Assembly (NCBI RefSeq): GCF_013391805.1 | Contig: NZ_CP058364.1 | Location: forward strand, 2,671,501-2,735,500 | From: Galbibacter sp. BG1 | GTDB lineage: Bacteria; Bacteroidota; Bacteroidia; Flavobacteriales; Flavobacteriaceae | Direction of reading: 5' to 3' | Length of the DNA: 64,000 nucleotides | Shown here: one piece after another, positions 3,343 to 58,165 of the stretch | Numbering within the stretch: position 1 is the first letter of the stretch | How the letters are laid out: each line of letters begins with the position of its first letter | Made by a program: the position numbers and the translations under genes | The notes under the pieces: generated by a model | Told to the model about the DNA's origin: nothing | Database searches by the model: none | What the model saw: only the letters and a program-made list of their open reading frames with translations

Positions 3343-6300
3343 ATGAACACAAAATTACTTATTAAACTTAACCTGCTTTTATGCTTTGGCTTTTTTCAAG
3401 CTGCCATTGCACAGCAGAGTGTATGGGAGACTTTAGCTCCAGGCGCAGGGGGGCAAGTACAAGACCTTTATTTCGACCCAGATGTTCCCGATAGAATTTG
3501 GTTGTCCAGCGATCAAGAAGGGAGCTATGTGTCTAACGATTTCGGGGATTCTTGGGATTTTATAGGAAGGGATTTAAGTCATGGAATGTCCTTTAAAATT
3601 AGAAAATCTCCCAATGGAAAGTATTTCCAAGGAGGTTTATGGGGAGCCCATGTCTCTACTAATAACGGACAAAATTGGACGCGAATTGCCGAAACCAAAG
3701 CAGATGCTATTGCCACGATTGCATTTAATAATAATGGTAGTACAATGGTTCTTGGGCCAAGTTGGCATACTAAAGACCCTCAAAAGATACAGGCCAGTAT
3801 TTCTGATCCTATTCAGCCTTTAACAGGGGAGCGTTATGTATACATCTCTACAAACGGTGGGAATTCGTTCAGTAAGGTAACATATGAAAATACTCCAGGT
3901 TATTATCAAGTATATAATGCCTTTATACATCCAACTACAGGCATTATTTATTTAGGTACAGCCTCTGGATTGTATGTCTCCACAGATGCCAATGGAACCT
4001 CATGGACGCGAATTCCTAACCCTACAGATGCCTATTTGGGTGAAGATGGAGGGATACAGACCATAACACAGTTTAGGGATGATGGAACACCTAACCCAAA
4101 TGGTTACAAGTTTAGTGGTGGAATATCTGGAATGGGATTTGTAGACAACGGGTCGAGGTTATATGCAGCCTATCAAACAGGTGAAGCAGCTTGGGCGGTT
4201 TACACTATTCAAACTTCTGATATCGCGCCAACAAATCCGAATTGGGTTAAAGTGAGCAATAATCTTTCAGATAAACCACAGTGGTACAATCCAGTGATAG
4301 ACCCTCGTTCCACTGCAACCAATCAAAAAATACTGCTGGGAACCACCTTCCTTGGGAGAGAGAACAGGGTAGGACTTTTTGAAGGGACAATTACCTACAA
4401 CGCCAATGGTGACTTAGTTAACAATTCATGGCAGCAAATTATAGCCAAAGACGAAGCTTTTGCTTTTGAAGAAGGTTGGGAAACCGCTAGTCTCATTTCT
4501 AGAACCTATAGTTATACACCAACTTCTTGGCCCGAAAGAAGAATTTTAACCGGTGGTGGGAATAGTTATTTTTTAAGCACCGATCCTTCAGCCGCTGGTT
4601 GGCCTTACGATGAAGACAGTTGGTTGCCGTTGTACACCCGAAAATCGGATGAAGATTTTGGAGAAGAACACACATGGTTTTCTACAGGATTTGCCAATAC
4701 AGTAACTTACGATATTGCGACGTATGAAAATTATGCGGTACAGGGGAATGCAGATCAAGGCGTTCTAGAGAGTTGGGATTATGGAAAGAGTTGGACAAAA
4801 AATACAGTTCCAAGAGGGATTACCAATGCACAATCGACCATAATTACAAATACCAATCCGCCTTTGGTGCTTATAGATACCAGACCCGGTTTTGGTATTG
4901 CCAGTCAAACCATTGGCCGCTTATATGCTCGGGAATTAACCGACCTCACTTCCCAACCAGCTGCTAGCGATTGGCGTTTAATAGGGGGAGGTACCGATAA
5001 TTCCAATATCGTAAATGGCCTGCCAAACAGGCAAATACAGGGGATGGCTTTAGATGATCTACATCCCAGTAGAGTATATTTGGGTTTAAGATCTATTTTT
5101 AGCGTTGGAGGAATTTATGCTACGGAAGAAATAGAGGCTATTTTTAGTGGAAAAGCCAATTGGATCGAAATTTCGGATTCTTCGATGCGGAATGAAAGCG
5201 CATTTAACGACCTATTTATAGATCCCAACAATTCGAATATTATGTGGGCTGCTGCTCGAGATCTATACAGAGGAGTGCGTACAGCTCCCAACACCTGGAC
5301 ATGGGAAAAATACGAAACAAGCATGCAAGATATGTATGTTTGGGATGATAATGGAACGACAAGGGTCGCTGTAGCACTTTCGGAAGGGGATGAAGCTGAG
5401 GTTTATTTAATTGAAAACCCAGATCAACCAGGTTGGAACAATGAGACAAGGTTTATAAGTACCGGACTTACTATTGATGAAACCCTAAATATACGACCTC
5501 AAGTATGGGTAGAGCCAAATGAAACCATTGCATTCGGTTTGATGGCTGGTTATAAGGACCAAATATATGTGGGTACAGAGAATGGAAAACATAAAAAGGG
5601 ATTAGGCGTTTTTAAGGGAACCATTAATTCTATTACCCAAGTAAATTGGGAAGATTTTTCTACGGACGATTCTGGTAAGGATTTCATTTATTCCAGGGAT
5701 AATTCGTCAGATTCTAAAATTAACATTGAATCTAATGGTGATGTAAATTATTACATTCCAACATTTGGTACTGGTGTTTATAGAAGGCTCATAGATTCTG
5801 GTGTAAACACAAATGGTTTAACGGTAGATAGAAGTGCAATACGCTTTGCTGCAGCTTCAGGGAGTGAAGAAAACCTTCAGATAAATGCAAATGGCAATTG
5901 GGCACTTAACAATATACCTAGTTGGCTAAATGCCAGCAGTGTTTCTGGTTCTGGAAATGTGAGTATTCAATTTACTACTTCCGCAGAAAATGTAGAACCT
6001 CAAAATCGTACGGCCACAGTATTATTAACTTCAGGGAATAAAGAAATTGAGATTCTTGTCACGCAAGTTGGAACCCCAATCCCTGTAAATTATGTTAATA
6101 ATACTTTTGAAATAGATGGTATACAGGACAGCCAATGGAATGCTTTAGATTGGGTAAATATCGACGTTAACCTTTTTGGTTCTACAAAAGATTCCAAAGA
6201 TAAATTTAAATTGGCCTATACTAGAGAGAATCTATACCTCTTGGTAAGGGTGCAAGATTCTTCTAAAAATACAGGAAGCGATCTTACCAGCGATCATTTT

Positions 6301-9255
6301 CAAATAGCTATTGATGTAAATAACGACAAAAAAAGTGTTCCTGGGGCTAACGATTACCGCTTTGCCATAACCAGCGACAACAGTAAAATAGATTTGCTGG
6401 GAGCCTTAGACAACGTCTTATATGCCGTTAATGCCATAGCTACCGGGTATGTTTACGAAGTAGCGATTCCATGGTCCAGTTTAGATTACATTCCCGTTAA
6501 CGAGACAGCCTTAGGCTTTGAAATTCAAGTGGCCGATAATCAAGACGGTCAAGGCATCGATCAAGCGAACCAATGGTTTACCGATAAAAATTTAGATACC
6601 AATAATCCATTCACGTGGGGAACAGCTAGAATAAACGGTCCAGATGTTCCTTGGTTAGAGACCTTTGATTTGGCTGCAAAGACGACATTAGACGATGGTA
6701 ATACCGCTTGGAGTTTAGACCTTTCCAATACCAATTTAGCTGATGAGAACGATTATTTAAAAGTTACCGAGGAAGGTGTTTTAGAGGCTCGTGACCTTGA
6801 TGGGGAGGCTATTTTTAAAACGGAAATTATTGATATATCCCAGGTAGCGAATGTGAGTATAAGTCTCGACGCTAAAGAAAAGGGAGATAACCTAAGGGAA
6901 GGAGATATCAATTATATAAAGCTTTTTGCGGTTGTAGATGGTGGAGAGGAGCAATTAATAGATCAATTGGTAGGTGATAATGCAGAGGACAATACATTTA
7001 TAAAGCTTTCTGGAAATGGTCTGGTTGGGAATCAACTCGAAATTATCGTTAAAATAGCAAATGATAGAGGTGGAACTTTTCATTCTATCGATAACCTGTT
7101 GATCGATTTTGGTACGGAAGAAGTGTGCAACGTCCCTGCTGCTTTAAGAGTAGAAGAACTTACACCGACTACGGCTACCTTGGCATATTCTCTTACCTTG
7201 GATGGTTTAAATACTTTTCAGGTTGAAATTAAAGAAGTTTCCGAAGCGACATGGCAATCGGTAGAGGTGCAAAATGAGTTGCAATATACTTTTCAGGAGT
7301 TACTGCCCAACACGGAATACGAATGGAGAGTGCGACAAAATTGTATAACAGGAGCTTCCACTTGGGTGAGCGGTACAAATTTTACAACACCAGAAGCACC
7401 GGTTTTAACAACTATTTTTGAAGAGTCTTTCGATGCTACAGATTGTTCTCCATCTTCTCAAGCCACAGTGGCTAGTTACGAGTGTTATACCAATTCTACT
7501 TCATTCTTCAGCGGTACGGCAGAATTTAACGATACTTTTAATGATGGAGATTATGAAGATGCTTCAAATGGGAATCACGTATTCCTTTCAGCCACCGATT
7601 TATTTTTCGAAATCAAGGGGATTAATACTACCGGATATACAAATACATTCTTCCAATTTGCAATACGAAAAAATGGAAATAACCAAGATGGATCTGATTT
7701 AAAACTGGAGATTACCACCGATGGAAGTACATGGAGCCAAGTTCCTGTGAGCTTGCCATCTGGAGAAAATAGTGCCGATTTCTGGTATGTAATTGTTCCT
7801 GAAGTTAATATTGTGGAAACCACAGATTTTGGAATTCGTTTTACCGCGGTAGGAACATCCAAATACAGGATTGATGATATTTTGGTAAAGGGTGAAGATG
7901 CCAACCAAGTTACCTGCGATGCACCTCAAAATATAAATGTTGAAGATTTAACAACTGAAAGTGCAGCGCTTCAATGGCCTGCGCTAAGTGCGGCTACAAA
8001 TGGTTACGAAGTTCGTTTTAAAGAAGAAAGTGCAGCAACTTGGGAGCCAACGGTAACCATAGCAACAAATAGTTTCAGTTTAAATAATCTTTTAGAAAAT
8101 ACCGCCTATGTTTTTGAAGTAAGAACCTTGTGTAGTGCAAATACAACTTCAGCATGGACAGAAAAGTTATTTTCAACAGAGGCTATTGGTGAGACGGTAT
8201 TGTTCCTTGAAACATTTGATAAAGCTAATTGTAGTTCCACCGGAAGTACAGTAGATACTTATAGTTGTTATAGTAGTGCAGCCACGCACAGCGGATCTGC
8301 AACTATATCATCTACCCAAAATAATGGAGCTTATGATGGATCATCCAACGGTAGTCATGTATTCTTGGACAACCCACAGGTTTCTTATACTATTAGCGGG
8401 ATATCCGTTACGGGATACGATAATTTTAAACTTAGTTTCGGAATTAGAAAAAATGGTAAGAATCAAGATGGTTCTAACTTATTATTGGAGTACAAAGAGA
8501 CATCAGGAGGTAATTGGACAGCAATACCCGTTAATTTACCGGTGGGAACCGATACCAACAGTTTTTGGTATTTAATTGACCTCCCTGGAGCAATATCAGT
8601 TAATAATTCGTTGGATTTAAGATTTACGGCGCTCGCAAGTCCTAGATATCGCATTGACGATATTCAGGTAAAGGGGACTCCTGTAATGGCTAATAAAAAT
8701 ACAGAAGTTAAAAAGTTAAAACTTACTTCTATGTGTTCCAATGAGCCGGCACTATCCAGAAGATGGAGAATTTCCAATCCTAATCAAACCGCATTATCTG
8801 TAGAATGGAAACTTTATGGTACTTCCAATAGTGGGGTATGGAATGTTCCTTCCGGTACTTCCTTTTTCGAAACACCAGCAGTAGGAGGTTCAAACACTCT
8901 AGTTATTAATTGGTTGAATGAAAAAGATGAATTGATTAAAACTGTAAAAGCTTCTTCTGGAAGTTTATGTGAAGAAATAGTGAATACCGCCCAAACGGAG
9001 ACTACGGCAGGAGAAATGAGCCTTACTGTTTATCCAAATCCTGTGATCAATTATTTCACTATTACCAGTGGAAGCGAAGAATTCATTCAAAATATTCTTA
9101 TTTACAATTTAGCAGGGCAGCTTGTTAAAACCATAAAAATAAATTCTCCATTACAGCAGGTTAAGGTTGATGCTACCGCTTGGCTTTCTGGTTTGTATTT
9201 GGTTAGAATTCAAACAAATAGTAACACATCCGATTATAAAATTTTCAAAGAATGA
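3343..9255 (+). CDS. Giant T9SS-exported Asp-box propeller protein, GH74-like, multidomain (paralogue A)
   Basis: This 1970-residue protein has a signal peptide (1-24) and an N-terminal propeller module (about 25-800) with Asp-box-type turns such as STNNGQNW and SWDYGKSW. The module opens with PGAGGQVQD. SSDQEG (Asp57) and NADQG (Asp471) align with the two conserved Asp sites of its four paralogues in this window. Then come a BACON-like domain (about 826-911), a CBM9-like domain (914-1100), a beta-sandwich (1104-1256), FN3 domains (1262-1349 and 1523-1614) and two copies of an unnamed module (1355-1518 and 1620-1780), each ending YRIDDI-VKG. A T9SS sorting domain (VYPNPV, 1893-1970) ends it. 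It is the most divergent of the five. Its stop overlaps the next start (ATGA). Function as an extracellular endo-glycanase is inferred; the exact family is unproven. Confidence 0.75.
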   Translation: MNTKLLIKLNLLLCFGFFQAAIAQQSVWETLAPGAGGQVQDLYFDPDVPDRIWLSSDQEGSYVSNDFGDSWDFIGRDLSHGMSFKIRKSPNGKYFQGGLWGAHVSTNNGQNWTRIAETKADAIATIAFNNNGSTMVLGPSWHTKDPQKIQASISDPIQPLTGERYVYISTNGGNSFSKVTYENTPGYYQVYNAFIHPTTGIIYLGTASGLYVSTDANGTSWTRIPNPTDAYLGEDGGIQTITQFRDDGTPNPNGYKFSGGISGMGFVDNGSRLYAAYQTGEAAWAVYTIQTSDIAPTNPNWVKVSNNLSDKPQWYNPVIDPRSTATNQKILLGTTFLGRENRVGLFEGTITYNANGDLVNNSWQQIIAKDEAFAFEEGWETASLISRTYSYTPTSWPERRILTGGGNSYFLSTDPSAAGWPYDEDSWLPLYTRKSDEDFGEEHTWFSTGFANTVTYDIATYENYAVQGNADQGVLESWDYGKSWTKNTVPRGITNAQSTIITNTNPPLVLIDTRPGFGIASQTIGRLYARELTDLTSQPAASDWRLIGGGTDNSNIVNGLPNRQIQGMALDDLHPSRVYLGLRSIFSVGGIYATEEIEAIFSGKANWIEISDSSMRNESAFNDLFIDPNNSNIMWAAARDLYRGVRTAPNTWTWEKYETSMQDMYVWDDNGTTRVAVALSEGDEAEVYLIENPDQPGWNNETRFISTGLTIDETLNIRPQVWVEPNETIAFGLMAGYKDQIYVGTENGKHKKGLGVFKGTINSITQVNWEDFSTDDSGKDFIYSRDNSSDSKINIESNGDVNYYIPTFGTGVYRRLIDSGVNTNGLTVDRSAIRFAAASGSEENLQINANGNWALNNIPSWLNASSVSGSGNVSIQFTTSAENVEPQNRTATVLLTSGNKEIEILVTQVGTPIPVNYVNNTFEIDGIQDSQWNALDWVNIDVNLFGSTKDSKDKFKLAYTRENLYLLVRVQDSSKNTGSDLTSDHFQIAIDVNNDKKSVPGANDYRFAITSDNSKIDLLGALDNVLYAVNAIATGYVYEVAIPWSSLDYIPVNETALGFEIQVADNQDGQGIDQANQWFTDKNLDTNNPFTWGTARINGPDVPWLETFDLAAKTTLDDGNTAWSLDLSNTNLADENDYLKVTEEGVLEARDLDGEAIFKTEIIDISQVANVSISLDAKEKGDNLREGDINYIKLFAVVDGGEEQLIDQLVGDNAEDNTFIKLSGNGLVGNQLEIIVKIANDRGGTFHSIDNLLIDFGTEEVCNVPAALRVEELTPTTATLAYSLTLDGLNTFQVEIKEVSEATWQSVEVQNELQYTFQELLPNTEYEWRVRQNCITGASTWVSGTNFTTPEAPVLTTIFEESFDATDCSPSSQATVASYECYTNSTSFFSGTAEFNDTFNDGDYEDASNGNHVFLSATDLFFEIKGINTTGYTNTFFQFAIRKNGNNQDGSDLKLEITTDGSTWSQVPVSLPSGENSADFWYVIVPEVNIVETTDFGIRFTAVGTSKYRIDDILVKGEDANQVTCDAPQNINVEDLTTESAALQWPALSAATNGYEVRFKEESAATWEPTVTIATNSFSLNNLLENTAYVFEVRTLCSANTTSAWTEKLFSTEAIGETVLFLETFDKANCSSTGSTVDTYSCYSSAATHSGSATISSTQNNGAYDGSSNGSHVFLDNPQVSYTISGISVTGYDNFKLSFGIRKNGKNQDGSNLLLEYKETSGGNWTAIPVNLPVGTDTNSFWYLIDLPGAISVNNSLDLRFTALASPRYRIDDIQVKGTPVMANKNTEVKKLKLTSMCSNEPALSRRWRISNPNQTALSVEWKLYGTSNSGVWNVPSGTSFFETPAVGGSNTLVINWLNEKDELIKTVKASSGSLCEEIVNTAQTETTAGEMSLTVYPNPVINYFTITSGSEEFIQNILIYNLAGQLVKTIKINSPLQQVKVDATAWLSGLYLVRIQTNSNTSDYKIFKE

Positions 9256-10823
9256 TAAGAAAACAATATACAATAGTTCTTCATATATTGTTAGTTAGCA
9301 AGGCAGCCCTGGTAATGGGGCTGCTTTTTACCGTTTTCAGTTGTAGCACTGCTCCAACTTCAACACTAAAAAATGGTCCTTTTAAAAGTTTTAATCCCGA
9401 CTTTATAGGGGTTAACGGAAATCTTACGGGTTTCCACGAACCATGGAGTAATGATTCCTTGGTTGCAGCCGTTTCTAAAATGGGTGTAAAAACAGTTCGT
9501 TATCCCGGCGGAACTATAGGTAATTACTGGGATTGGGATATCGGTTGGATCGATCAAGAGGTGGAAGACAGCTTAATGATTCAATGGGTTGTAGAAAACG
9601 AACTGAAAAATAGTAAAAACAGGTATACTCTTGAAAACCTAGCAGAACTTTATAAAAAAACAGGAATTAAGCCTGTCTTCATGTTGAATATGCTTAGTAA
9701 AGACTTGGCACATTCCAAAAGAAATTTAAAAAAAGCAGATTCTTTGGGATTACCCATTGAATATGTAGAATTAGGAAATGAATTATATTTCGATATTCCT
9801 TATCCTTTATTGAAGTACCCAACCCCAGAAGTTTATGGGGATACATGTCAAAAATGGATAGATACCTTGAAAAAAGAATTTCCGAATGCAAAATTTGCGA
9901 TTGTTGGAAACTATTTAAAAAGACACGATAGACAAATAGATTGGACAAAAAGAGTGCTTTCTACCTGCCATAATGCAGATGCCGTTACCTTTCATAAATA
10001 CAATCCTTCTGGATTGGATGGCAGTAAGGAACGAAATAAGATCAGTGCGGGCAGCGAAGGTTTTGCCGATGAAACAACAGCCACCAGAAAAGCTCCCAAA
10101 AATATAGCTAAACGGCAGAAATGGGAATTGGAACAATTAAAAGACGAAAAAGCATTTAACAATATGCTTACCAATATTCAATTTAGTTTGGAAAGCTACA
10201 AAAAAACGCAAATACCAAAAGATTTAAGTGGTTGGTCCACAGAGTTTAATATGCGAGATGACAATTCGGTAATTTTGCACAGTTGGTCGCAAACCTTATT
10301 GGTTTCTGCATACTATTTGGCATTTTTGGAAAGGGATGTGGAAATTACCAATATACATAACCTAATTGGGCCTTTGTTCGGGGTCTTACACACCAATAAA
10401 ACCACCTTCAATCATTTAAAGAATGAAAAGCGTACATCAAAACCATATCAATTTTCGGCAGGAGGCCTCGCTGTTAACCTCTTTTCACAGGCCATACAAA
10501 ATGCATCTTTAGGAGCCCCAATAGAAATTGATAACAACACATTTTTAAGAGACGACAGAAATAATACCTACGATGCATTGCAAGGCTGGTCTTTCAAGAG
10601 CGAGAATGGGGAGGTAAGAACCATTGTAATTAATTATTCTGATAATGGACATACATTGAAATTGCCAAAAAATAATAGTTTAATAAACGCTAGGTCGTAT
10701 TATGCTTCCGTAGCGACTCCCATAACTGAAGGTTTTGAAAGTATTGAGCAAAGAGATTTAAAAATAGGGGATGAAAATTTTTTATTGCCTAAAAAGTCAA
10801 TAACCATAGTTACATATAAATAA
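9252..10823 (+). CDS. Clan GH-A glycoside hydrolase, lipoprotein (GH51/GH79-like)
   Basis: A 523-residue protein with a lipobox (LLFTVFSC, Cys31), so it is probably anchored in the outer membrane or periplasm. The body looks like a (beta/alpha)8 retaining hydrolase. VRYPGGTIGNYWDW (83-96) resembles the RFPGG strand of arabinofuranosidases and glucuronidases. VELGNE supplies the likely acid/base Glu177, and GWSTEFN the likely nucleophile Glu331. A C-terminal beta-domain follows, as in GH51 and GH79. The ATG overlaps the stop of the preceding giant gene, and the next gene starts 2 bases after its stop, so these genes are co-translated. The likely job is removing arabinofuranosyl, uronic acid or similar units from oligosaccharides. 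I cannot assign the family firmly. Confidence 0.7.
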   Translation: MIRKQYTIVLHILLVSKAALVMGLLFTVFSCSTAPTSTLKNGPFKSFNPDFIGVNGNLTGFHEPWSNDSLVAAVSKMGVKTVRYPGGTIGNYWDWDIGWIDQEVEDSLMIQWVVENELKNSKNRYTLENLAELYKKTGIKPVFMLNMLSKDLAHSKRNLKKADSLGLPIEYVELGNELYFDIPYPLLKYPTPEVYGDTCQKWIDTLKKEFPNAKFAIVGNYLKRHDRQIDWTKRVLSTCHNADAVTFHKYNPSGLDGSKERNKISAGSEGFADETTATRKAPKNIAKRQKWELEQLKDEKAFNNMLTNIQFSLESYKKTQIPKDLSGWSTEFNMRDDNSVILHSWSQTLLVSAYYLAFLERDVEITNIHNLIGPLFGVLHTNKTTFNHLKNEKRTSKPYQFSAGGLAVNLFSQAIQNASLGAPIEIDNNTFLRDDRNNTYDALQGWSFKSENGEVRTIVINYSDNGHTLKLPKNNSLINARSYYASVATPITEGFESIEQRDLKIGDENFLLPKKSITIVTYK

Positions 10824-20000: not shown

Positions 20001-20161
20001 ACCTTTCGAAATTTAGGTTGTATATGGCTGGACAGAATGTATTTACCATAGCCGATTATACAGATGTTGGGTTCGATCCAGAGATTGGAAGTGGAGGTAT
20101 AGACAATGTGGTTTATCCACAAGCGAGAACAATTACTTTTGGTTTACAATTAGGATTTTAA
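17060..20161 (+). CDS. susC: SusC/RagA-type TonB-dependent outer-membrane receptor
   Basis: A complete 1033-residue receptor that imports oligosaccharides across the outer membrane using TonB energy. It has a signal peptide (1-26), a carboxypeptidase-regulatory-like domain (about 31-110, SGKVLGEDGVPLPGATV), a hinge (LDEVVVVAYGTQ), a plug domain (about 115-225, with IRGVGSITGGSS, LYVIDGN and SASAIYGSRAANGV) and a 22-strand-type barrel ending in an aromatic C-terminus (TFGLQLGF). The plug is nearly the same as that of the partial SusC at 1-905. susD follows after 10 bp. The ATG at 17060 is preceded by an AT-rich leader without a Shine-Dalgarno site, normal for this phylum. It is the import gate for the locus. 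Confidence 0.97.
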   Translation: MKTSYYLKTFVLLLFFFAFNISNVWSQNATSISGKVLGEDGVPLPGATVIEKGTSNGTQTDFDGNFSLSVENPQKAVLTISYVGFATQEFPLQSQNNFTITLKEDFAKLDEVVVVAYGTQEKGNITGAIASVGSENLEGRPVADFQNALQGQVAGLNITSSSGAPGGRSSAVIRGVGSITGGSSPLYVIDGNIMNNFIGSQGPGFTQPDPLSTINPADIESVTVLKDASASAIYGSRAANGVILITTKRGKSGKAKIEFNTYTGFQTATNTLDLLNSSQYQQVWNAARDNAGESRIPALDGTNLTVDTDWQDEVLRSAPMQNYQLSATGGGENTRYYTSLSYLNQEGIVIGTGLERFSLQLNSDTRLGKFKMGNSLTVSRSKFDKESVNAGQTILTWAIVNAPNVPVYNPDSLGGFGGPTPADGEPTLNPVAAQELVTSENTVNRILGNVYAQYDILNGLTFKVNAGFDLITFHDRFAAPDFELGGLQIPGFEQGSEVSEYRGENNSILLENTLNYKRKLGKHNIDLLAGYSIQQTEYSDVRVRVLGEYVGTGLPVINGSNDINTASGLINEGRITSFFSRAMYDYDDRYLFTANFRRDGSSRFDPSKFYGNFYSFSAGWNISNEDFMKDSFISNLKLRASYGGLGNDQISGAPNFTLNQNARYVLGTGQVITSGVVPIGTIYNRDLSWETQTQANFGLDLGIFENRLNFTVDYFDKKSEDLLFPVPTPTTTGFTKINLNAGEVTNKGWEITVNYSDRIGEDFRLGAGFNFTTIKNEVTKLAQDLEAFEGSAFGQLSGAQRTRVEVGHSVRSFYGYKVEGIFQSIAEVNAAADQGDLTAPGDLRYADISGPDGTPDGVIDENDRTFIGDAVPDVSYGFNLNLGYKNFDLSAQFQGVYGNDIWSETKFYTQSYARTNNLSTAVLNAWTPQNPSTTTPRTYPQTLADNDRVSDFFIEDGSYLRLKNLQIGYTFSNEVLDKLGNLSKFRLYMAGQNVFTIADYTDVGFDPEIGSGGIDNVVYPQARTITFGLQLGF

Positions 20162-49200: not shown

Positions 49201-51363
49201 CCTAAATGCCCCATAAGGTTTACCAAACTCATGATGATAGCAACCAAGTATGATTTGATTGTCAATGCCGGCCACGCCCCCATAATTAAATTTGTATCGA
49301 TCTGAAATGTAATCATACCAACTGTGATTTTTTAGGGGAAGCGTAGTTTCTTTATTTAGGATGGTATTCCAAGTAGCTCCATCATCGGTAGAAATTTGCA
49401 CCGACATGTTCGAATCGTAAGCACCGGTTCCAGGATCTTTTTCTTGCCCGGAATATACCAAGTATGTTTTATTATTATAATCCCAAGCGGTAATACTGGC
49501 ACCCCAGCCTATTCCATCATTTATTTGTTCCCAAGACCAGGAATTTCCAGATCTTGTACCTTTAAATAGATGTTGTTTTTGATTGGTGGTCGGACTGTTT
49601 TCAAAGATGTTGGAAGCTACGTAGATGATATTGGGGTTTGAAGGATGAAAGGCAATGGAATTTGCGCCGGCAATATTATCAGTATCTTTATCCGCAATCT
49701 TTTGAGCGCTTCCTCCATTAATAAAATCCTTAATATCCTCAATCCACCATATCCCACTCCCATAAATTCCCATTAGCACACTTTTTTGATTGTGGGGAGA
49801 GACCCTTAAGGCTTTCACATTGTAATTGTTAGGTAGATTGCCATTTCTGGCCTGCCATGTATCTGTAGGATCCAAATTGGTCAGTTTTTTTGTCATTATG
49901 GTATGCCCGCTCAAATTTACACCACCCCAACCTTGGGCGGCAGCAACAACTACGGTTGGAACACCATCGACCATAGCAAAATCTACTGCATCTGCGTGGT
50001 TGTGTCTATTAAACTCACGTACGGAATGATTGTTCCAGGAATACCCATAATCCCAACTTTCTTGAATTCCGTTATCTCCTTGACTTTGTATGGCATAATT
50101 TGCATATGCGGAACCGTCGAAAGTAAAAGTGCTGGCAAAACCTTTACTGTGATAAGTAGGTTCTCCAGTGGCCGGGGTAATTATGTTTGTTGGCTCGCAA
50201 TATTTGTTTTCGAAGTGCCATTCTGTTCCATTTGGAGTTCCAGAAAACAATGTTTGATTACCTGTAGTCCAAATGGCTTTATCCCAAGTAGTAGGGGAGT
50301 AATGGGCCCATCGCACATTTGGGTTTGGATACCAAGTATCCCAACCTGGATCGAAATTGTCTTGCTCATTCCATATATTTTCCCAGTTGTAGGAACTTAT
50401 GGAATTCCCATTCCAATCAATAGTACACTGCCACAATCCTGATCTAGCATTTCTGTAGGCCACTAACAGATTATGAGTGTTTCCCGTAGAACGGTCATCT
50501 ACTTCAGGGTACCACATTTGGCTCGTATACGTTAATCCGCTGGTTATATCATTCCAAGAAATGGAAGAGGTTCGACTAGCATATATTTTAGATCCAGATC
50601 CTACGTTAAAATAATCACCATTATCGGTGGCATAAGTTGCGTAAATAACGTCACCTTGAGGAGATAAATCGATTCCTCTACACTTATACTGGGTGGGCCC
50701 TGGAATTAAATTCCAATTGGTTCCTGCATTCGTTGTTTTCCATAAACCTTGGTCTCCGGCAATATAAATGGTTCCTTGAGAGGTTTTATCGAATACAATA
50801 GAATAAATGTTGAAATAATTATCTGTTATGTTATTGTAGGTGACTTCGGTCCATGAAGCCCCATAATCCCATGATTCAAAATAATGTCCTGGTCCAGAGG
50901 AAGCTACACGCCCAATACCCCACGTCCAAAAATCGTAATCGTCTTTCCAACCTGCCCCAGCAATAATGTGGTTAGAATCAAAAGGATCAATCGCTATAGC
51001 ATTTATTGAATTATCCGCAGTTTCGGGAGCGAAAAAATAGCTTTGCCCGGCATTGTTGGATATTGATAATCCGTACATGGTTCCCACGTAAATCCGATTA
51101 CTATTAGTGGGGTCTACTGTGGTAATAAATGCACGGGAATGCACCAAACCTTCCGAAGCGTAATGCCAGGATTCTCCATTATCGTCACTTCTGTAAACAC
51201 CTTCCATGTCGGATGAAAGGTAAAGTCTACCAGGGATATTGGGATCGCAAACTACATCTTGAATTTGACCGCCACCACCAGGATTGAGGTCTTCCCATTG
51301 AGACCGAACTGCCCATACGCTTATTAGCGTCAGGAACAGGGTAAAAAAATATTTGAATTTCAT
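46246..51363 (-). CDS. Giant T9SS-exported Asp-box propeller protein, GH74-like, with PA14, CBM, Big_2 and discoidin-like domains (paralogue C)
   Basis: A 1705-residue protein. The start at 51363 (MKFKYFFTLFLTL) puts the signal peptide first; the open frame extends to 51465 but those 34 residues precede the signal. The GH74-like module (about 23-770) opens PGGGGQIQD and keeps Asp52 (SSDMEG) and Asp430 (SQGDNG). Then FN3 (779-866), PA14 (878-1014, YFDNIDFTNLVATG, WTGEVVAPTTGTYTF), two FN3 domains (1024-1113 and 1118-1203), a CBM4/9-like module (1216-1369), Big_2 (1376-1458, VIWSSSNNSVATV), a discoidin-like domain (1463-1611) and a T9SS sorting domain (MYPNPI, about 1624-1705). It follows paralogue D by 121 bp in one operon. 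It is a probable surface or secreted polysaccharide-degrading enzyme. Confidence 0.78.
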   Translation of the reverse strand: MKFKYFFTLFLTLISVWAVRSQWEDLNPGGGGQIQDVVCDPNIPGRLYLSSDMEGVYRSDDNGESWHYASEGLVHSRAFITTVDPTNSNRIYVGTMYGLSISNNAGQSYFFAPETADNSINAIAIDPFDSNHIIAGAGWKDDYDFWTWGIGRVASSGPGHYFESWDYGASWTEVTYNNITDNYFNIYSIVFDKTSQGTIYIAGDQGLWKTTNAGTNWNLIPGPTQYKCRGIDLSPQGDVIYATYATDNGDYFNVGSGSKIYASRTSSISWNDITSGLTYTSQMWYPEVDDRSTGNTHNLLVAYRNARSGLWQCTIDWNGNSISSYNWENIWNEQDNFDPGWDTWYPNPNVRWAHYSPTTWDKAIWTTGNQTLFSGTPNGTEWHFENKYCEPTNIITPATGEPTYHSKGFASTFTFDGSAYANYAIQSQGDNGIQESWDYGYSWNNHSVREFNRHNHADAVDFAMVDGVPTVVVAAAQGWGGVNLSGHTIMTKKLTNLDPTDTWQARNGNLPNNYNVKALRVSPHNQKSVLMGIYGSGIWWIEDIKDFINGGSAQKIADKDTDNIAGANSIAFHPSNPNIIYVASNIFENSPTTNQKQHLFKGTRSGNSWSWEQINDGIGWGASITAWDYNNKTYLVYSGQEKDPGTGAYDSNMSVQISTDDGATWNTILNKETTLPLKNHSWYDYISDRYKFNYGGVAGIDNQIILGCYHHEFGKPYGAFRGIIESDNSVTWENWTDNIDFPGFTKAQIKNIEGKNYYYGSTAGTGLWRREITPVGGSSITPPSNLQAENSGSGIDLSWSDNSSNESGYRIERGSDGKGFSVLKTVAANTTTYTDEGFCPGKNFNYRVRTVSGSSVSNPSNSVTITSSSPGLPEGSANGLIVEYFDNIDFTNLVATGIEEPINFDWKRIAPNNCMDVDTWSARWTGEVVAPTTGTYTFEATADDAVSVWINGELIIEQTLEDPNDPVSGTVAMTANTKYAIKIEYAEDGWDANLVLKWAANDEALTIVPASALSSNGIAPQDPPASPSSLIAAAFSENQIDLTWNDNSTNENGFSIQQLTDGNWEALATVSANVSSYSATNLEADKSYSFRVRATNSGGNSNWSNVASATTDPLPSDPPNAPSNLTTSTVSSSSISLTWTDNSNDENGFKVERKIGSETFSEVAMVNSNTSSFLDTGLNEETTYYYRVRSYNSNGNSAYTATKSGTTGSGNDNGCPNPNLVLNGEFNNELNNWNFYHNTSGNPMATVVNNANLSGSNAVKVTINSGATGTNDSDIQLFTNTGSLESGKTYQITFQAKATANRSMRVGVLNNVSPWNNYSSDIVNLTATSQTFGPLEFSMSETTSNARLDFFLGGNSNNVFIDNVSIKEKCNGSTNIPVTAVSISGCTSSLTTNNTMDLSANVSPSNASNKNVIWSSSNNSVATVNSSGTVTANAVGSSTITVTTAEGNKTATCKVTVSNDGGSSTAYRYLRLTGLGTVGNAVTIQQIHWMENGNSYPNPKLTWGTKAKATSSTNGQDDFAAFDNTNGGWNIGTSFPEWITIDLGIGNEINPDKIRIKANASDRGFSSFECHGSNDNSNWTLLHSESGLTPADYPSTWGTFPFSGTSSKSTNANAEVLQLNDTDTTFSMYPNPIEAGEVLSINTETNDSFEIAIFNTSGSKILERKFDRKSGTSIEVPLSSTLASGIYFIIYISETKKVTKKIFIK
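46508..47166 (-). repeat. Direct repeat copy 1 (659 bp, discoidin + Big_2 tail of paralogue C)
   Basis: This segment is very similar, with no net length change, to 51741-52399 in paralogue D. It codes for most of the Big_2 domain and all of the discoidin-like domain. Sequence on either side is much less alike, pointing to recent duplication or gene conversion. Confidence 0.85.
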
Positions 51364-51484: not shown

Positions 51485-54400
51485 CTATTTTATAATCAAC
51501 TTTTTAGTAATTTCTTCATTTTCAGAAATGTATTTGATAAAATAAACTCCGGTAGCCAATTGTTTTTTTAGATCTATTTTTAACGGTTTCTGCGTACTTT
51601 CGTTATAAGTATTGTGAAAAACCTGGGTGCCGTTTACGTTATAGATAACCAAATCGAAACTAGCGCCCGATGTCGCTGTCAGGTATAAATCTGCATCTGT
51701 TGGCAACGGATTTGGGTATACACTGAAATTAGAGTCAATAAGCTGAAAAACTTCAGCAGTGGCATTGGTTGATTTAGAAGAAGTCCCGCTGAAGGGAAAA
51801 ACACCCCAAGTCGATGGATAATCGGCAGGCGTAAGTCCGCTTTCACTATGTAATAATGTCCAATTGGAATTGTCGTTCGATCCGTGGCATTCAAAAGAAG
51901 AAAAGCCTCTATTGTCTGCGTTTGCTTTCAGTCTTATTTCATCTGGAGCTATTTCATTGCCAGCACCTAAATCTATTTTTATCCAAGCAGGGTAGGAGGT
52001 ACCTACATTCCAGCCCCCATTAGTATTATCGTAAGCCGCATAATCGCTGGATGCATTGTTGCTGGATGTTACTTGAGACTGAGTGTTCCAAGTAATTTTT
52101 GGATTAGGGTAAGAGCTACTGCCAACCATCCAATGAATTTGTTGTAATGTAACCTCATTTTGAACGGTACCATACCCAGTTAACCTTAAATATCTATAGG
52201 CGGTAGTAGAACCACCGTTGCTGGTTACTGTAACTTTACATGTAGCTGTTTTATTTCCATCTGCGGTGGTAACGGTAATGGTACTGCTCCCCGTAGCATT
52301 GGCCGTAACTGTTCCAGAACTATTTACTGTGGCAACGCTATTGTTGGAAGAACTCCAACTAACATTTTTGTTGCTGGCGTTAGACGGATTTACATTGGCC
52401 GTGAGGGTAAATGAACTCCCTACCGTTACACTGGAATTACATCCACTAATTCCTACACTGATTACGGGAACCGTTGATGAGCCCGAACATTTTTCTTTAA
52501 CTTCAATTTTATCAATAAAGATATCTTTGGAATTACCTCCTACAAAAAAATCGATTCTACTGTTGTTGGAAGTCTCCGTCATTGTAAATTCAAACGGTCC
52601 AAAATCTTGGGTAGAAGTTGTTAAGTTAATGTTCTCTGTTAAGTAATTGTTCCACGGACTTGCGCTCTGTAACACACCTAAACGCATGCTTCTGTTTCCA
52701 GTAGCTTTTGCTTTAAAAGTTACTTGGTAAGTCTTGCCATTATCCAGATTTCCTGTGGGACTAAAAAACTGTATATCGTTGTCAGTATTTCCCATGGCAG
52801 AAGAACTAATGTTTATTTTTATAGCGTTGCTTCCAGACATTCCAGCATCGGTTACTACGCTCGCTGACGGACTTCCACTTGTATTGTTGTACAGCGTCCA
52901 GTTATTGGTTCCATCATTAAATTCACCATTTTGTATGAGATTTGCATTGTTGCAACCTCCGCCTCCACCAGAATTTGTGGTTGCGCTGCTTGTATTGGAA
53001 AATGATGAATTACCACTGGCGTTATAGGCTCTTACCCTATAGGTGTAATTCGTAGATGGGTTTAAGCCAGTATTGTTGTAAGAAGTTATACCGGCATTTA
53101 CCGTTGTAATCTGACTAAAAGATCCACTTCCTTGTTTACGCTCAATTTTGAAACCTGATTCGTTATTGGAATTATCACTCCACGATAGGTTGATTTGACT
53201 GGAAGACGTTGCATTGGTAGATAGATTACTAGGTGCAGCAGGAGCAGTTGGATTTGTGCCACTACTGCTCAATTCCCTTCTAATAGCGCCTGCTCCGGCT
53301 GTCGAAGCATAAAAATATGTTTTACCATCAAGTCCTTTTGCAACAATTCCTGAAGTAGCACCACCAAAATGAATATCTCCTGTCCAATCTTGCCATGAAA
53401 CGTTGCTACCACTAATGGTACCTTTAAAGATACCGTAGGTTTGTTGTTGTCTATGATCGTAATAATTTACAATGATCTGATTTTCGTGTCCGGCTATCCC
53501 TCCTTTACTGCTAAATCTAAAGTCTTCAGAAACTGCACTATACCAAGATGGAGTTCTTAGGGATTTCGCCGTGGCGGAAGTAATTACGGTGTTCCATGAA
53601 TTGGCATTGCCTTCATTTAATGAAAGAACCCCTTTAAATTCACCTCCAATGTCGGCAAAATAGAATACATATACTTGCCCGTTATGTTCCCAAACAGATA
53701 CTTCGGCATCCCAACCCGATCCGCTGTATATTTTACTGAAATTCCAGTTAGAACCATTTTTTACACCTTTAAATAATCCTTGATCACCTCCGGTGTTTGA
53801 AGTTAAAAATACAACGTCTGGATTGGTAGGGTGTGGAGCAATCTTTTTTACCCTCACGCCGCTCATGCCAATAAATTGCATTATCGATGCACCGTTGGCA
53901 GCAGCCCAGATATCATCAATTAAATAAAGTCCATGATCATTACTTGCAGCAAATAAACGGTCTTTTTTAGCCGGGGAGATAGCAATATCTCGGTATTGAC
54001 CGCTATTTGGGAAGCCAACAATAGATGCCTTATAGCTATCTGCTACTTCATTCCACTCGTCAGACGGAGATTTTGTGTTTAAAATTTTCATCCAAAGTCT
54101 TCCGCCACCAAAGCAGTAGCCACCATAGCAAGAAGGAGAAGATTCCGTAATTGCAATATATTTTCCATTGTCATATCCTATGGCTGCACTTTGAGCATCG
54201 GATTGCTGACCTTTCCAACGCATTTGCAAATTACTCCAAGAATTACCACCATCCCAACTTTCAACCCAACCGTTGTCTGCCATGGATTGTAAAACATAGT
54301 TGTCTTGAACCGCAATATCGTAGGTATAAGTACTAGCTGTACCTCTACTGGAATAGGTAGGGGAGCCGCCTACGCTAAAATTGTTATTGGGAACACTGTA

Positions 54401-55510
54401 TTTGTTATTCCAATTCCAACCCCAGCCCGAGGAAGATCCATTGGGGGTTGCTTGAAAAATTGTTTGGTTGGTGGTAGACCAAATAGCGCGAGACCAACTT
54501 GTAGGGGTATAATGCGCCACCCTAGGGTTAGGGTCAGCGACATCCCAACCAGTATCGTAACCGCTAGTGCCTTCCCATATTTTTTTCCACGAATAGTTGG
54601 AAAGCGAATTCCCGCTCCAATTAAATGTACCCTCATATAAACCCGGACGATCTCCCAAAATAGCCATAGTTACTTTGTGCGAAGAACCAGTAGACCTAGG
54701 ATCTACTTCTGGATACCAATATTTTGCACTTCCATTCAAACCAGACATTTTAGATTGCCAATTAATGGATGAAGTGCTGGTAACATAAAGATCGTGATTA
54801 AAGGTTCCGTAGAGGGTTTGTCCGTTCGGACTCAATGCGACACCGCTGTTAGTGCCAGGGTTGTTGCCTAAAGCAAACCATGAGGATCCAGCATTGGTGG
54901 TTTTAAAAACACCTTGCGACGTTCCCATATAAGCAACATTGGCATTGTTTGGATCGAATTGAATGGTGTAAACATTTCTATTTCCAGATCCACTAATCTC
55001 AACTTTGGTCCATGAACTACCTCCGTTAGTAGATCGATACGTAATGATATTTCCATTTTGCGACATACCAAAATTGCTGGCAAAATCGTTATCGTCTCGC
55101 CATCCCACACCGGCGATTACGTTATTTGGGTTGGCCGGGCTCACACCAATGGCCCCGATGGAGAACCGTTTTGATGCACCTACTAGGTTAAAGTTGTTTC
55201 CTCCATCATTGGAAACTTCAAGACCGTATAAAGTACCTACAAACATTTTGTTGGAGTTGCCAGGGGTAACGGCTATGGCATAGACCCTATTTTGTTTTAA
55301 ATATCCTTTTTCTTTCCAAGTTTGACCGTTATCGGTGCTTTCATAAATTCCTTCCATATCGGAGGCTAAAAATACCCTGTTGGGAGTATTTGGATCGCAA
55401 ACAATGTCCTGAACCTGACCCCCAGCTCCAGGGTTTAATGACTGCCACTGAGAGAAACCAATTAATGGTACCATTGCTAAGAGACAGAGCATAGTAATTT
55501 TCTTTTTCAT
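51485..55510 (-). CDS. T9SS-exported Asp-box propeller protein, GH74-like, with FN3, CBM, Big_2 and discoidin-like domains (paralogue D)
   Basis: A 1341-residue protein with signal peptide (1-20) and GH74-like module (about 21-750). It opens PGAGGQVQD and keeps Asp51 (ASDMEG) and Asp412 (SMADNG). Asp-box turns include STDNGQTW and STNGGSSW. Accessory domains are FN3 (about 757-842), a CBM4/9-like module (852-1003, LIQNGEFNDG), Big_2 (1010-1098), a discoidin-like domain (1102-1245, WIKIDLGAGNEIAPDEI) and a T9SS sorting domain (YPNPL, about 1257-1341). It is first in the operon with paralogue C and the sulfatase at 44572. Its upstream region has the shared 18-bp element and a TATGTTCG box, in an arrangement repeated upstream of paralogue E. 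The tail is closely related to that of paralogue C. Confidence 0.78.
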   Translation of the reverse strand: MKKKITMLCLLAMVPLIGFSQWQSLNPGAGGQVQDIVCDPNTPNRVFLASDMEGIYESTDNGQTWKEKGYLKQNRVYAIAVTPGNSNKMFVGTLYGLEVSNDGGNNFNLVGASKRFSIGAIGVSPANPNNVIAGVGWRDDNDFASNFGMSQNGNIITYRSTNGGSSWTKVEISGSGNRNVYTIQFDPNNANVAYMGTSQGVFKTTNAGSSWFALGNNPGTNSGVALSPNGQTLYGTFNHDLYVTSTSSINWQSKMSGLNGSAKYWYPEVDPRSTGSSHKVTMAILGDRPGLYEGTFNWSGNSLSNYSWKKIWEGTSGYDTGWDVADPNPRVAHYTPTSWSRAIWSTTNQTIFQATPNGSSSGWGWNWNNKYSVPNNNFSVGGSPTYSSRGTASTYTYDIAVQDNYVLQSMADNGWVESWDGGNSWSNLQMRWKGQQSDAQSAAIGYDNGKYIAITESSPSCYGGYCFGGGRLWMKILNTKSPSDEWNEVADSYKASIVGFPNSGQYRDIAISPAKKDRLFAASNDHGLYLIDDIWAAANGASIMQFIGMSGVRVKKIAPHPTNPDVVFLTSNTGGDQGLFKGVKNGSNWNFSKIYSGSGWDAEVSVWEHNGQVYVFYFADIGGEFKGVLSLNEGNANSWNTVITSATAKSLRTPSWYSAVSEDFRFSSKGGIAGHENQIIVNYYDHRQQQTYGIFKGTISGSNVSWQDWTGDIHFGGATSGIVAKGLDGKTYFYASTAGAGAIRRELSSSGTNPTAPAAPSNLSTNATSSSQINLSWSDNSNNESGFKIERKQGSGSFSQITTVNAGITSYNNTGLNPSTNYTYRVRAYNASGNSSFSNTSSATTNSGGGGGCNNANLIQNGEFNDGTNNWTLYNNTSGSPSASVVTDAGMSGSNAIKINISSSAMGNTDNDIQFFSPTGNLDNGKTYQVTFKAKATGNRSMRLGVLQSASPWNNYLTENINLTTSTQDFGPFEFTMTETSNNSRIDFFVGGNSKDIFIDKIEVKEKCSGSSTVPVISVGISGCNSSVTVGSSFTLTANVNPSNASNKNVSWSSSNNSVATVNSSGTVTANATGSSTITVTTADGNKTATCKVTVTSNGGSTTAYRYLRLTGYGTVQNEVTLQQIHWMVGSSSYPNPKITWNTQSQVTSSNNASSDYAAYDNTNGGWNVGTSYPAWIKIDLGAGNEIAPDEIRLKANADNRGFSSFECHGSNDNSNWTLLHSESGLTPADYPSTWGVFPFSGTSSKSTNATAEVFQLIDSNFSVYPNPLPTDADLYLTATSGASFDLVIYNVNGTQVFHNTYNESTQKPLKIDLKKQLATGVYFIKYISENEEITKKLIIK
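51741..52399 (-). repeat. Direct repeat copy 2 (659 bp, discoidin + Big_2 tail of paralogue D)
   Basis: Partner of 46508-47166. Both copies have the same length and the same order of codons around long shared stretches such as GFSSFECHGSND, SNWTLLHSESGL and NKNV-WSSSNNSVATV. Confidence 0.85.
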
Positions 55511-55580
55511 TTTTTGAAGTTTTTGTTAATACTTGATTATTAGTTAATTATAACGAAGCGAACATATCGAATTTGATAGC

Positions 55581-55598: not shown

Positions 55599-55775
55599 CA
55601 AATCAAAAGTTAATAATCTAAGAATTATGCATTTTATCGATACTATTATTCAGAAATAGATAATTTTGAGAGGGTAAATTTGCAAATTATAAGTTGAGGT
55701 TGTGCGGAAGTAGGTAGAAGCGTTATAATTGTAATCTTTTTTAATATTCTCCAAACTGAAATAGCTGTATACAAC

Positions 55776-55813
55776 AAAAGAAGCCGATTTCCTGTTTTAG
55801 GATGGCTTCTTTT
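55776..55813 (-). terminator. Rho-independent terminator of paralogue E
   Basis: A 10-bp stem (AAAAGAAGCC / GGCTTCTTTT) with a small inner stem (TCCT/AGGA), 46 bp after the stop at 55859. It separates paralogue E from the operon starting at 55510. Confidence 0.88.
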
Positions 55814-55858
55814 ATTAAATAAAACTTGCTATCAAAAGTTAATTATTAAAACTTTTGT

Positions 55859-58165
55859 TTATTCTTCTCGCATCCAAGCTCCTGCACCGGCTGTGGAAAC
55901 AAAGATTTTCTTATGTCCGTCGATTACTTTTATTACTGCGGAAGTTAAACCTCCATAACCGATATCTCCAGTATAATCTTCCCAAGTGACATTTCCTTTA
56001 GAATCGATACTTCCCTTGAAAATGCCATATGCTTTCTGCATTCTATGGTGGTAGTAACTCATTATAATATGGTTATCGAAACCTAGAATACCTCCTTTGT
56101 TACTAAAAACATAATCGTCTTTAATGTGCTTGTACCATTTATTGGTTTTCAATTCCATAGCCATTTCTTTTGTGAAAACAACTTTCCATGTTTTACCTTC
56201 ATCTAGGGAAAGTACCCCTATAAAGTTCTTGCCATCTCCATGTTTTTCGTTGGATTCCCCTGAAAAAAACAGGTACACTTGTCCGTTATGCTCCCAAGAA
56301 TCAACTTCGGCATCCCAGCTGGAACCGTTGTATATTTTACTCCATTTCCAAGAGCCATTATCTTTTTCTCCTTTGTAAACTCCTTGATCGCCCGTAGTTG
56401 CGTTTAGAAAAACAATGTTTTCATTTGTGGGATGTGGCGATATTTTCTTTACACTTTTCACTTTGTCCAAGACGCCATTTGAAATCTTTTCAAAGGAAAT
56501 CTTTTGGTTCGCTTTGCTCTGCCCTATAGCCATATCTATATCGTCAATCATATAAAGTCCATTATCGGAGGAAAATGCAAAGACACGGTTTTGCTTGATT
56601 GGGGAAACGGCTATATCTCTATAAATTCCGCTGGGCATTCCTCCCTTTTTATCTGGGCCACCAGCTAGGAATATCCATTTATCATTGGGCGTGTGGGTTT
56701 TAAGTTCTTTAATATATAATCTACCATCTACAGCAGCACCTCCATAACCCCCCGTGGCTTGAGCTATTACTATAGGGTTGTTTTCTCCTTGGGCAATTGC
56801 AACAGATTGAACATCGGATAGGTTCATGTTTGCATTGCGGTGTTGTATGTTGGACCAGCTCTTGCCATAATCCCAACTCTCTACAAAACCATTATCTCCC
56901 TGCGCTTGTAAAACATAATTTTTATCAGCAGTAATATCATAAGTATAGGTGCTTTCGGTTCCCCTGCTACTGTAGGTAGGCCACCAAGACTCCCAATGAG
57001 GCACTTGGAAATTAAAATTGGGAATACAGTACTTATTGTTCCATTGGTAATAGTTTTCCTTGGCAATACCCTCAAAAATTGTCTGATTAGTGGTAGACCA
57101 TATTGCTCTTTTCCAGTTTTTTGGGGTATAATGTACAAAGCGTGGATTGGTATGAGCATAGTCCCAACCAGTATCGAAACCTCCAACTCCAGACCAAATA
57201 GTTTCCCATGAATATTTTAAAAGCTTGTTGTTGTCCCAGGTTAATGTCGCTTCAAATAGCCCTTCTCTACTATGCTGAAGTCCCACTATGAGTTTATGAC
57301 TTTTTTCGGTTGAGCGAGGATCCACTTCAGGATACCAAAAATCGAACATTCCCAACTTAATTCCTTCACCATTGTTTATCTTTTCCCAATTAATGGTACT
57401 GGTTGGTGTTGCATAAACGTATCCTTTATTGTCTTTTACGGCATAGGTAGCATACAAAATTTCTCCATTCGGACTCAAAGCAGCGCCCCAATTTTGTGTT
57501 GTATTTTCTGGAGCTTTCAGTTTTTTCCAAGTTCTTCCCGCATCTTCACTTTTATAAATTCCTTTGGAAGCTCCTATATAAACAATATTTTTTTTGGTAG
57601 GGTGATATTGAATAGTAAGGACATTTCGGTTTGTGTTTGCCTCATCTTCATAGATAATAGTTTCCCAGGTTTTTCCGCCATCCAGAGACTGGAACAATTC
57701 CCCTCGGCCTTGAGACTGTAAACCGAAATAATGGGAAAAGTCCAAATCGTCGCGCCATCCCAACCCCGCAATTATATGTTCGGGATTGTTTGGGTTAACG
57801 GCAATTGCCCCAATGGATTTTTTTCGGGTGATTTCTACCAGGCTGAAGTTTTCCCCTCCATCTTCAGATACTTCCAGGCCGTACAAAGTCCCTACAAACA
57901 TTTTTTTAGAGTTGCCGGGGGCAACGGCTATGGCATAAACTCTATTTTGCAATAAATCCCCCTTGGGATGCCAGGAATTTCCATTATCGTCACTTACATA
58001 AATCCCTTCCATATCTGAAGCAAGGTAGAGCCTGTTTTCAATATTTGGATCGCAAACTACATCCTGTACTTGTCCACCTGCGCCTGGGTTAATAGACGTC
58101 CATTGTGCGCTCATTAAAATAGGGAGCATTAGGAGAAAAGAGATGATTTTAAACTTAGATATCAT
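55859..58165 (-). CDS. Stand-alone secreted Asp-box propeller protein, GH74-like (paralogue E, no sorting domain)
   Basis: A 768-residue protein made of a signal peptide (1-20, LMSAQ) and the propeller module alone. It opens PGAGGQVQD and keeps Asp51 (ASDMEG) and Asp424 (AQGDNG). Asp-box turns include SDDNGNSW, SLDGGKTW, SEDAGRTW and SLDEGKTW. The module ends STAGAGAWMREE, a sequence the other paralogues also show just before their accessory domains, so this protein defines the module's boundary. With no T9SS sorting domain and no lipobox it is probably periplasmic, unlike its four paralogues. The length of about 745 residues fits the two seven-bladed propellers of GH74. It is a single-gene unit with its own terminator (55776) and control region (58194-58233). 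Confidence 0.78.
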   Translation of the reverse strand: MISKFKIISFLLMLPILMSAQWTSINPGAGGQVQDVVCDPNIENRLYLASDMEGIYVSDDNGNSWHPKGDLLQNRVYAIAVAPGNSKKMFVGTLYGLEVSEDGGENFSLVEITRKKSIGAIAVNPNNPEHIIAGLGWRDDLDFSHYFGLQSQGRGELFQSLDGGKTWETIIYEDEANTNRNVLTIQYHPTKKNIVYIGASKGIYKSEDAGRTWKKLKAPENTTQNWGAALSPNGEILYATYAVKDNKGYVYATPTSTINWEKINNGEGIKLGMFDFWYPEVDPRSTEKSHKLIVGLQHSREGLFEATLTWDNNKLLKYSWETIWSGVGGFDTGWDYAHTNPRFVHYTPKNWKRAIWSTTNQTIFEGIAKENYYQWNNKYCIPNFNFQVPHWESWWPTYSSRGTESTYTYDITADKNYVLQAQGDNGFVESWDYGKSWSNIQHRNANMNLSDVQSVAIAQGENNPIVIAQATGGYGGAAVDGRLYIKELKTHTPNDKWIFLAGGPDKKGGMPSGIYRDIAVSPIKQNRVFAFSSDNGLYMIDDIDMAIGQSKANQKISFEKISNGVLDKVKSVKKISPHPTNENIVFLNATTGDQGVYKGEKDNGSWKWSKIYNGSSWDAEVDSWEHNGQVYLFFSGESNEKHGDGKNFIGVLSLDEGKTWKVVFTKEMAMELKTNKWYKHIKDDYVFSNKGGILGFDNHIIMSYYHHRMQKAYGIFKGSIDSKGNVTWEDYTGDIGYGGLTSAVIKVIDGHKKIFVSTAGAGAWMREE

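Follow-up and report, generated by a model that had tools for sequence, protein, structure and literature searches.

Glycoside hydrolase family 74 (GH74) is known as a xyloglucan family, and its enzymes cleave by a single-displacement (inverting) mechanism. The closest solved relative of the proteins considered here is PDB entry 6P2K, released in 2019 under the title 'AFV00434, an ancestral GH74 enzyme', presumably the protein from the marine bacterium Simiduia agarivorans in Arnal et al. 2019; these authors reportedly describe that protein as a dual propeller of distant relationship. In a stretch of 64,000 nucleotides of the Galbibacter sp. BG1 genome, a single contig of 3.7 Mb (NZ_CP058364.1, positions 2,671,501 to 2,735,500; hereafter the window, with positions counted from its first letter), five open reading frames (ORFs), named A to E in their order along the window, encode modules that belong with 6P2K and are probably dual beta-propeller hydrolases of a sulfated-glycan polysaccharide-utilisation locus, not of xyloglucan. 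In the review PMC10317168, GH74 is presented as a xyloglucan family and an 'ancestral bacterial Simiduia agarivorans GH74' is mentioned; besides this review, no literature on the clade of A to E and 6P2K was found among the titles and abstracts listed. A clade with a solved structure, but no assigned function found, turns up beside sulfatases in distant bacteria, and this neighbourhood is a direct lead to the substrate. If the assignment is true, a family is added to the sulfated-glycan enzymes and the GH74 fold is used well beyond xyloglucan.

The five proteins are encoded as follows (T9SS, type IX secretion system):
3343..9255, + strand: GH74-like protein A, 1970 residues; N-terminal signal (by eye), module at about 3412-5800, BACON, CBM9-like, fn3, T9SS C-terminal domain
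38631..44258, - strand: GH74-like protein B, 1875 residues; module at about 41938-44201, fn3 (four stretches), CBM_4_9 (three stretches), T9SS C-terminal domain
46246..51363, - strand: GH74-like protein C, from its likely ATG; module at about 48976-51303, fn3, PA14, Big_2, T9SS C-terminal domain
51485..55510, - strand: GH74-like protein D, 1341 residues; module at about 53233-55453, fn3, Big_2, T9SS C-terminal domain
55859..58165, - strand: GH74-like protein E, 768 residues; N-terminal signal (by eye) and module, with which the protein ends

Coordinates and translations agree with the original prediction of five ORFs with a common module of about 745-800 residues, while its description of the proteins as giant does not suit E. 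The ORF of C reaches 51465 with a TTG start (1739 residues), but the ATG at 51363-51361, residue 35 of that ORF, is the likely start and leaves 1705 residues. Relative to the E module, identity amounts to 58% in B, 54% in D, 40% in C and 29% in A. The type A C-terminal domain of the T9SS (TIGR04183) scores above the curated NCBIfam cut-off in A to D and was not found in E by the same domain scan of all five; fn3 occurs in each of A to D, and CBM9-like, CBM_4_9, PA14, BACON and Big_2 domains in one or another of them. Asp-box turns had been claimed for all five, and Asp-box-like turns indeed number 5, 7, 6, 6 and 8 in A to E (first 800 residues or whole protein), more than in every one of 500 shuffled sequences per protein (means 0.3-0.6; maxima 3, 4, 4, 3 and 4). 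The Pfam family Sortilin-Vps10 is matched by D (38.4) and E (65.7) against a gathering score of 33; A and C are not above it, and B reaches 33.3 only if neighbouring stretches are included and is absent from the domain listing of the five proteins. A further match to this family lies outside the window in the same genome (contig 1, 2535337-2535708), within a frame of 356 residues.

The fold of the modules was approached with AlphaFold models of E and of A, the most divergent of the five, built from 30-row alignments (mean predicted local distance difference test 91.0 and 89.0, respectively) and compared with the PDB by Foldseek. For both models 6P2K is the top match, with a template modelling (TM) score by query of 0.96 at 46% identity for E and of 0.83 at 26% identity for A, and ranks 3-25 (E) and 3-24 (A) are all GH74 or xyloglucanase entries (TM 0.49-0.67 and 0.58-0.63, respectively), which bears out, for these two modules, the GH74-type fold proposed originally. 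Identity to the GH74 xyloglucanase structures in these tables is 12-17%, and other double propellers rank behind them, their E-values being weaker by nearly four orders of magnitude for E and by over two for A. By our reading of the strands, the modelled E and A modules comprise two seven-bladed propellers as in GH74. In sequence, E matches 6P2K by phmmer at 1.7e-223 and a profile of all five modules does so at 5.9e-274, and the 6P2K sequence contains both Asp motifs discussed below. The modules of A to E thus belong with the 6P2K clade by an end-to-end match in sequence and, for E and A, in fold. As E and A match 6P2K, a structure of the clade has been available since 2019, from a homologue that the original prediction missed. 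Whereas 6P2K is a single protein, four of the five modules here are joined to T9SS and other domains, and all five lie in one sulfatase locus.

To find further relatives, an alignment of the five modules served as query against GTDB 220, with each species represented by one genome; the yield was 169 pattern stretches, 32 relatives and 26 loci. The name Simiduia is absent among these loci, and an earlier scan of the same kind with E alone gave no relatives. Together with 36 modules from 25 other loci, some of them from near-identical species, the five form a set of 41 full-length modules, from which two partial modules (L021 845-4024 and L022 3-1271) were left out; L038, with stops in its match, was left out of alignments and tree. 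Two Asp residues, Asp1 and Asp2, are invariant in all 41. Since one of the two scan patterns was the Asp1 motif, the invariance of Asp1 is partly a matter of selection; the Asp2 motif was in neither, and several loci entered by the other pattern alone. The positions predicted originally for the pair (57/471, 51/424, 52/430, 51/412 and 51/424 in A to E) are exact by scripted residue count, with C numbered from its ATG. The codons of Asp1 are:
3511..3513, + strand: Asp57 of A, by scripted residue count
44106..44108, - strand: Asp51 of B, by scripted residue count
51208..51210, - strand: Asp52 of C, residue 86 of the TTG ORF
55358..55360, - strand: Asp51 of D, by scripted residue count
58013..58015, - strand: Asp51 of E, by scripted residue count

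Asp1 is aligned to the Asp of the GH74 TDIGG-type motif by phmmer, in a weak domain, and to the same residue by hhalign with 98.7%, while a bridge via a profile of VPS10-like proteins sets Asp1 and the GH74 residue on one column. Judged by these alignments, Asp1 is the equivalent of the first catalytic Asp of GH74. In the 2CN3 chain an Ala stands in place of the TDIGG-type Asp that 2CN2 has, and GH74 entry 6MGL is titled a D60A mutant, in which D60 is presumably this same Asp. Of the claim that the two residues are paired as in GH74, the Asp1 part is upheld, and the register of Asp2 is not fixed by profile alignments.

As to canonical GH74, the motifs R(T/A)DxGG, GERLx(V/I)D, NDDxHxxG and (Y/F/A)G(R/L)(V/C)Y, picked by us from a GH74 alignment, are each present in nine of nine GH74 sequences and in none of the 41 modules. 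A fifth, the GH74 Asp2 motif as we wrote it, is missing from the modules too, but as it occurs in only four of the nine it is not diagnostic. Conversely, PGxGGQxQ, SDx(E/D)GxY and the family's own Asp2 motif occur in 41 of 41 modules and in neither the nine GH74 sequences nor 14 VPS10-like ORFs. A canonical GH74 module, from locus L042, used as query does not retrieve 6P2K among its 17 chains at E up to 0.001, and the Galbibacter genome gave no canonical GH74 at E 1e-30 and none at 1e-60 (three of 14 candidates scored). By these sequence criteria the clade of A to E lies outside canonical GH74, in line with the proposal of a GH74-related but distinct family. Relative to the GH74 xyloglucanases (4LGN, 6P2L-6P2O, 6MGJ, 2CN2, 7KN8, 1SQJ), it thus shares the fold, the place of Asp1 and, by strand reading, the blade of Asp2, but neither more than a low identity nor the four motifs. 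It is hardly probable that the five are true xyloglucanases of canonical GH74 function whose sequence has diverged: the common fold and the title of 6P2K speak for this, yet the four motifs are gone, the locus holds sulfatases, GH92 and GH10, and the relatives lie beside sulfatases, some with GH92, GH97, GH2, GH30 or GH43.

Asp-box repeats are likewise a feature of VPS10/sortilin-like proteins, 14 of which, one ORF each from loci L002-L015 in relatives of the source genome, were fetched with the E module as query; their open frames span 856-1586 residues, and the ORFs compared 692-872 residues, possibly cut by locus ends. This group gives the strongest profile match of both families, as the GH74 profile matches it at 4.3e-47, more strongly than it matches the family of A to E, and the profile match of A to E to GH74 is for this reason not specific. 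What sets the VPS10-like proteins apart from the 41 modules is the lack of PGxGGQxQ and SDx(E/D)GxY in all 14 and of Asp1 in 12. A clear best match to a non-hydrolytic Asp-box family had been named as an outcome that would speak against the GH74 relationship; by score the VPS10-like proteins do come before GH74 and would, if non-hydrolytic, be such a match, but the comparison discriminates poorly because GH74 itself matches them still more strongly and because the set was fetched with a module of the window.

The codons of Asp2 are:
4753..4755, + strand: Asp471 of A, by scripted residue count
42987..42989, - strand: Asp424 of B, by scripted residue count
50074..50076, - strand: Asp430 of C, residue 464 of the TTG ORF
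54275..54277, - strand: Asp412 of D, by scripted residue count
56894..56896, - strand: Asp424 of E, by scripted residue count

In the E model, by our strand count, Asp2 is located in blade 8, between its strands 2 and 3, a position that would agree with that of the second catalytic Asp of GH74 in the first blade of propeller 2, as we read it from the GH74 sequence. Proof of the equivalence from sequence was sought and failed, as the alignments were in the wrong register, non-significant or, in the case of the VPS10-like bridge, placed the residue elsewhere. Profile alignments of the second half with GH74 gave a wrong register or no significance, and with the nine-sequence GH74 set the collinear match in the right register does not appear before the fourth suboptimal alignment (probability 5%, P 0.0074). 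An alignment of blades 7-8 that omits the next Asp box does bring D424 onto the GH74-type Asp (P 0.047 for VPS10-like, 0.2 for GH74), which is weak evidence because this choice was made after seeing the earlier alignments. Asp2 is likely, but not shown, to be equivalent to the second catalytic Asp of GH74.

Several observations weigh against a catalytic family next to GH74. The family of A to E matches the VPS10-like profile at 1.7e-44 and GH74 at 6e-20; the VPS10-like bridge sets D424 43 residues before the Asp2 column of GH74, in a column where 13 of the 14 VPS10-like proteins have Asp; and a global run against GH74 without the Asp box aligned only two columns. Double propellers whose titles do not mark them as glycosidases reach TM scores of 0.54 (E, rows 26-50) and 0.55 (A) and so overlap GH74, for which reason the fold by itself is not decisive. 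No other glycan gene was found among the ORFs scanned in relative locus L029, in much of L024 and in much of the far side of L030. The main competing explanation, which we consider unlikely, is that the modules are non-catalytic glycan-binding propellers holding the polymer for sulfatases and glycoside hydrolases, with the Asp residues in a structural role. It would account for the strong VPS10-like match, for the D424 column in the best alignment, and for the binding-type domains that several of the paralogs carry. Asp1, on the other hand, is present in 41 of 41 modules against two of 14 VPS10-like proteins, at the position of the GH74 catalytic Asp, and the nearest structures after 6P2K are GH74 enzymes.

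Under hydrolysis, the glycan chain would lie in the groove between the two propellers, with the two invariant Asp (51 and 424 in E) as the putative acid/base pair of a single-displacement, inverting cleavage as in GH74. A to D are probably exported by the T9SS and would cut the polymer outside the cell with the help of their fn3, CBM and PA14 domains, and the SusCD pair of the locus would take up the products. E, as it is without a T9SS domain, may act in the periplasm, where it is probably located and would trim oligosaccharides together with sulfatases and GH92.

The hosts of the relatives include, by record title, Marivirga, Persicobacter, Tamlana, Flammeovirga, Marinigracilibium and Pedobacter; more distant records comprise one planctomycete (L027), two verrucomicrobial (L028, L041) and one cyanobacterial (L034) locus, of which L027, L034 and L041 are metagenome-assembled genomes and L034 sits on a contig of 5.6 kb. 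Closer to the source genome, 34 of 60 relatives have a match to E at 1e-3, those outside the source genome being partial (best 2.6e-14); none of six genomes of the same genus has any match to E at 1e-3. Among 395 genomes of the phylum a match at 1e-40 is restricted to the source genome, with at most two candidates scored per genome. This patchy distribution would fit transfer; a foreign base composition was considered but gained no support, with 38.0% GC in the locus against 35.4-41.0% in ten 20-kb samples of the genome.

The original prediction described the family as expanded fivefold, whereas the tree of 41 modules does not support a local expansion. In this tree the partner of A is Tamlana (L029), followed by Marinigracilibium, that of B is Marivirga (L017), that of C is Persicobacter (L024), that of D is Tamlana (L019) and that of E is L016, and all five pairings carry starred support; the top identities are 74% to Tamlana sp. 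I1 for A, 83% to Marivirga for B, 72% to Persicobacter for C, 86% to Tamlana sp. I1 for D and, by blastp, 61% to L016 for E. Because the nearest relative of each lies in another genome, the tree dates the five paralogs before the separation of these genomes, or else they were exchanged one by one, an aspect of age absent from the earlier account. Several modules per genome group are found elsewhere as well, with ten full-length in seven Persicobacter loci, five in three Flammeovirga loci and four in two Tamlana loci. Tentatively, and with somewhat less confidence than the hydrolase assignment itself, the clade may form a separate glycoside hydrolase family, sister to GH74, of endo-hydrolases of a specific sulfated polysaccharide, in old paralog sets common to Bacteroidota of several families; Planctomycetota, Verrucomicrobiota and perhaps Cyanobacteriota would contribute distant members, and on a single polymer each of the five paralogs would be specific for its own linkage or pattern of sulfation.

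The sulfated-glycan setting claimed originally is supported by four sulfatases in the window, all with C-x-P-x-R, and recurs in the relatives. Their flanks hold 22 ORFs like these four sulfatases against 3.06 expected (23 of the 26 loci, with L016, L034 and L038 left out; 12 genomes), the expectation being drawn from whole-genome counts and a lower bound in three genomes because at most 90 candidates were scored there. At least one sulfatase ORF is present in 11 of the 12 genomes; Tamlana has none. In the 26 loci GH92 was found in three, a SusE-like gene in two and ManD in one, and 30 of 49 further ORFs, from 13 loci, were scanned, among which there are two GH97 ORFs, a GH2, a GH30 and a GH43 ORF and, in the neighbourhood of L024, a sulfate permease, while many have no glycan link.

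The neighbouring genes in the window are:
1527..2978, + strand: sulfatase (PF00884), C-T-P-A-R, TTG-start ORF
9252..10823, + strand: protein of 523 residues without significant Pfam or PDB match; lipobox, GNEL stretch and later WSTEF (by eye)
10825..12549, + strand: sulfatase (PF00884), C-A-P-S-R; best solved match S1_8A
13046..14572, - strand: sulfatase (PF00884), C-T-P-S-R; best solved match N-acetylgalactosamine-6-O-sulfatase, S1_15 types close behind
14752..16680, - strand: ADP-ribosylglycohydrolase-like protein
17060..20161, + strand: SusC-like TonB-dependent transporter
20172..21671, + strand: SusD-like protein
23068-26538, - strand: FG-GAP and ASPIC/UnbV protein, 1156 residues; a relative (37%) adjoins the E-type gene in L016
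28069..30381, + strand: GH92 protein
31263-32480, - strand: ManD-type mannonate dehydratase, above the NCBIfam cut-off; 87% over 300 residues to the Marivirga L017 homologue
34080-35027, - strand: inosine-uridine nucleoside hydrolase-like protein, also near GH74-like genes in L017 (73%) and L035 (49%)
36749..37831, - strand: GH10 protein
37940..38626, - strand: SusE-like protein adjoining B, as others adjoin B-type genes in L017 and L019
44572..46170, - strand: sulfatase (PF00884), C-C-P-T-R; shares 74% identity with a sulfatase adjoining the Marivirga D-type gene (L022)

A GH5-type protein, an SDR oxidoreductase, a sugar transporter and ROK and SIS proteins are also part of the locus. The ManD-type dehydratase is a hint at mannose or hexuronate in the substrate and, with the SDR oxidoreductase, would fit hexuronate or mannose oxidation. 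There is a very slim chance, for which these two genes would speak, that the five are propeller-type polysaccharide lyases whose sulfated glycan contains uronate; propeller-fold lyases exist in other families, but none is found by title among the best 50 of 1550 (E) and 1418 (A) structure matches, and the two invariant residues in question are Asp. A substrate for the predicted hydrolases was also sought through the sulfatase types, yet the solved S1_8 and S1_15 matches are distant, so that their specificity was not transferred. In PMC12549532, S1_8/S1_15-type enzymes are tied to galactose 2- and 6-sulfate of lambda-carrageenan, and the excerpt of PMC13063451 deals with a sulfated diatom mannan and GH92, with no occurrence of GH74 in that excerpt. 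The protein at 9252-10823, for which inspection of the sequence by eye suggests a hydrolase with a clan GH-A type barrel, has homologues adjoining GH74-like genes in Flammeovirga (L020, 46%) and in a Flavobacteriaceae genome (L040, 52%). Homologues of the ADP-ribosylglycohydrolase-like protein are found in six of the 26 relative loci, near the GH74-like genes of L020, L023, L028, L033, L035 and L041.

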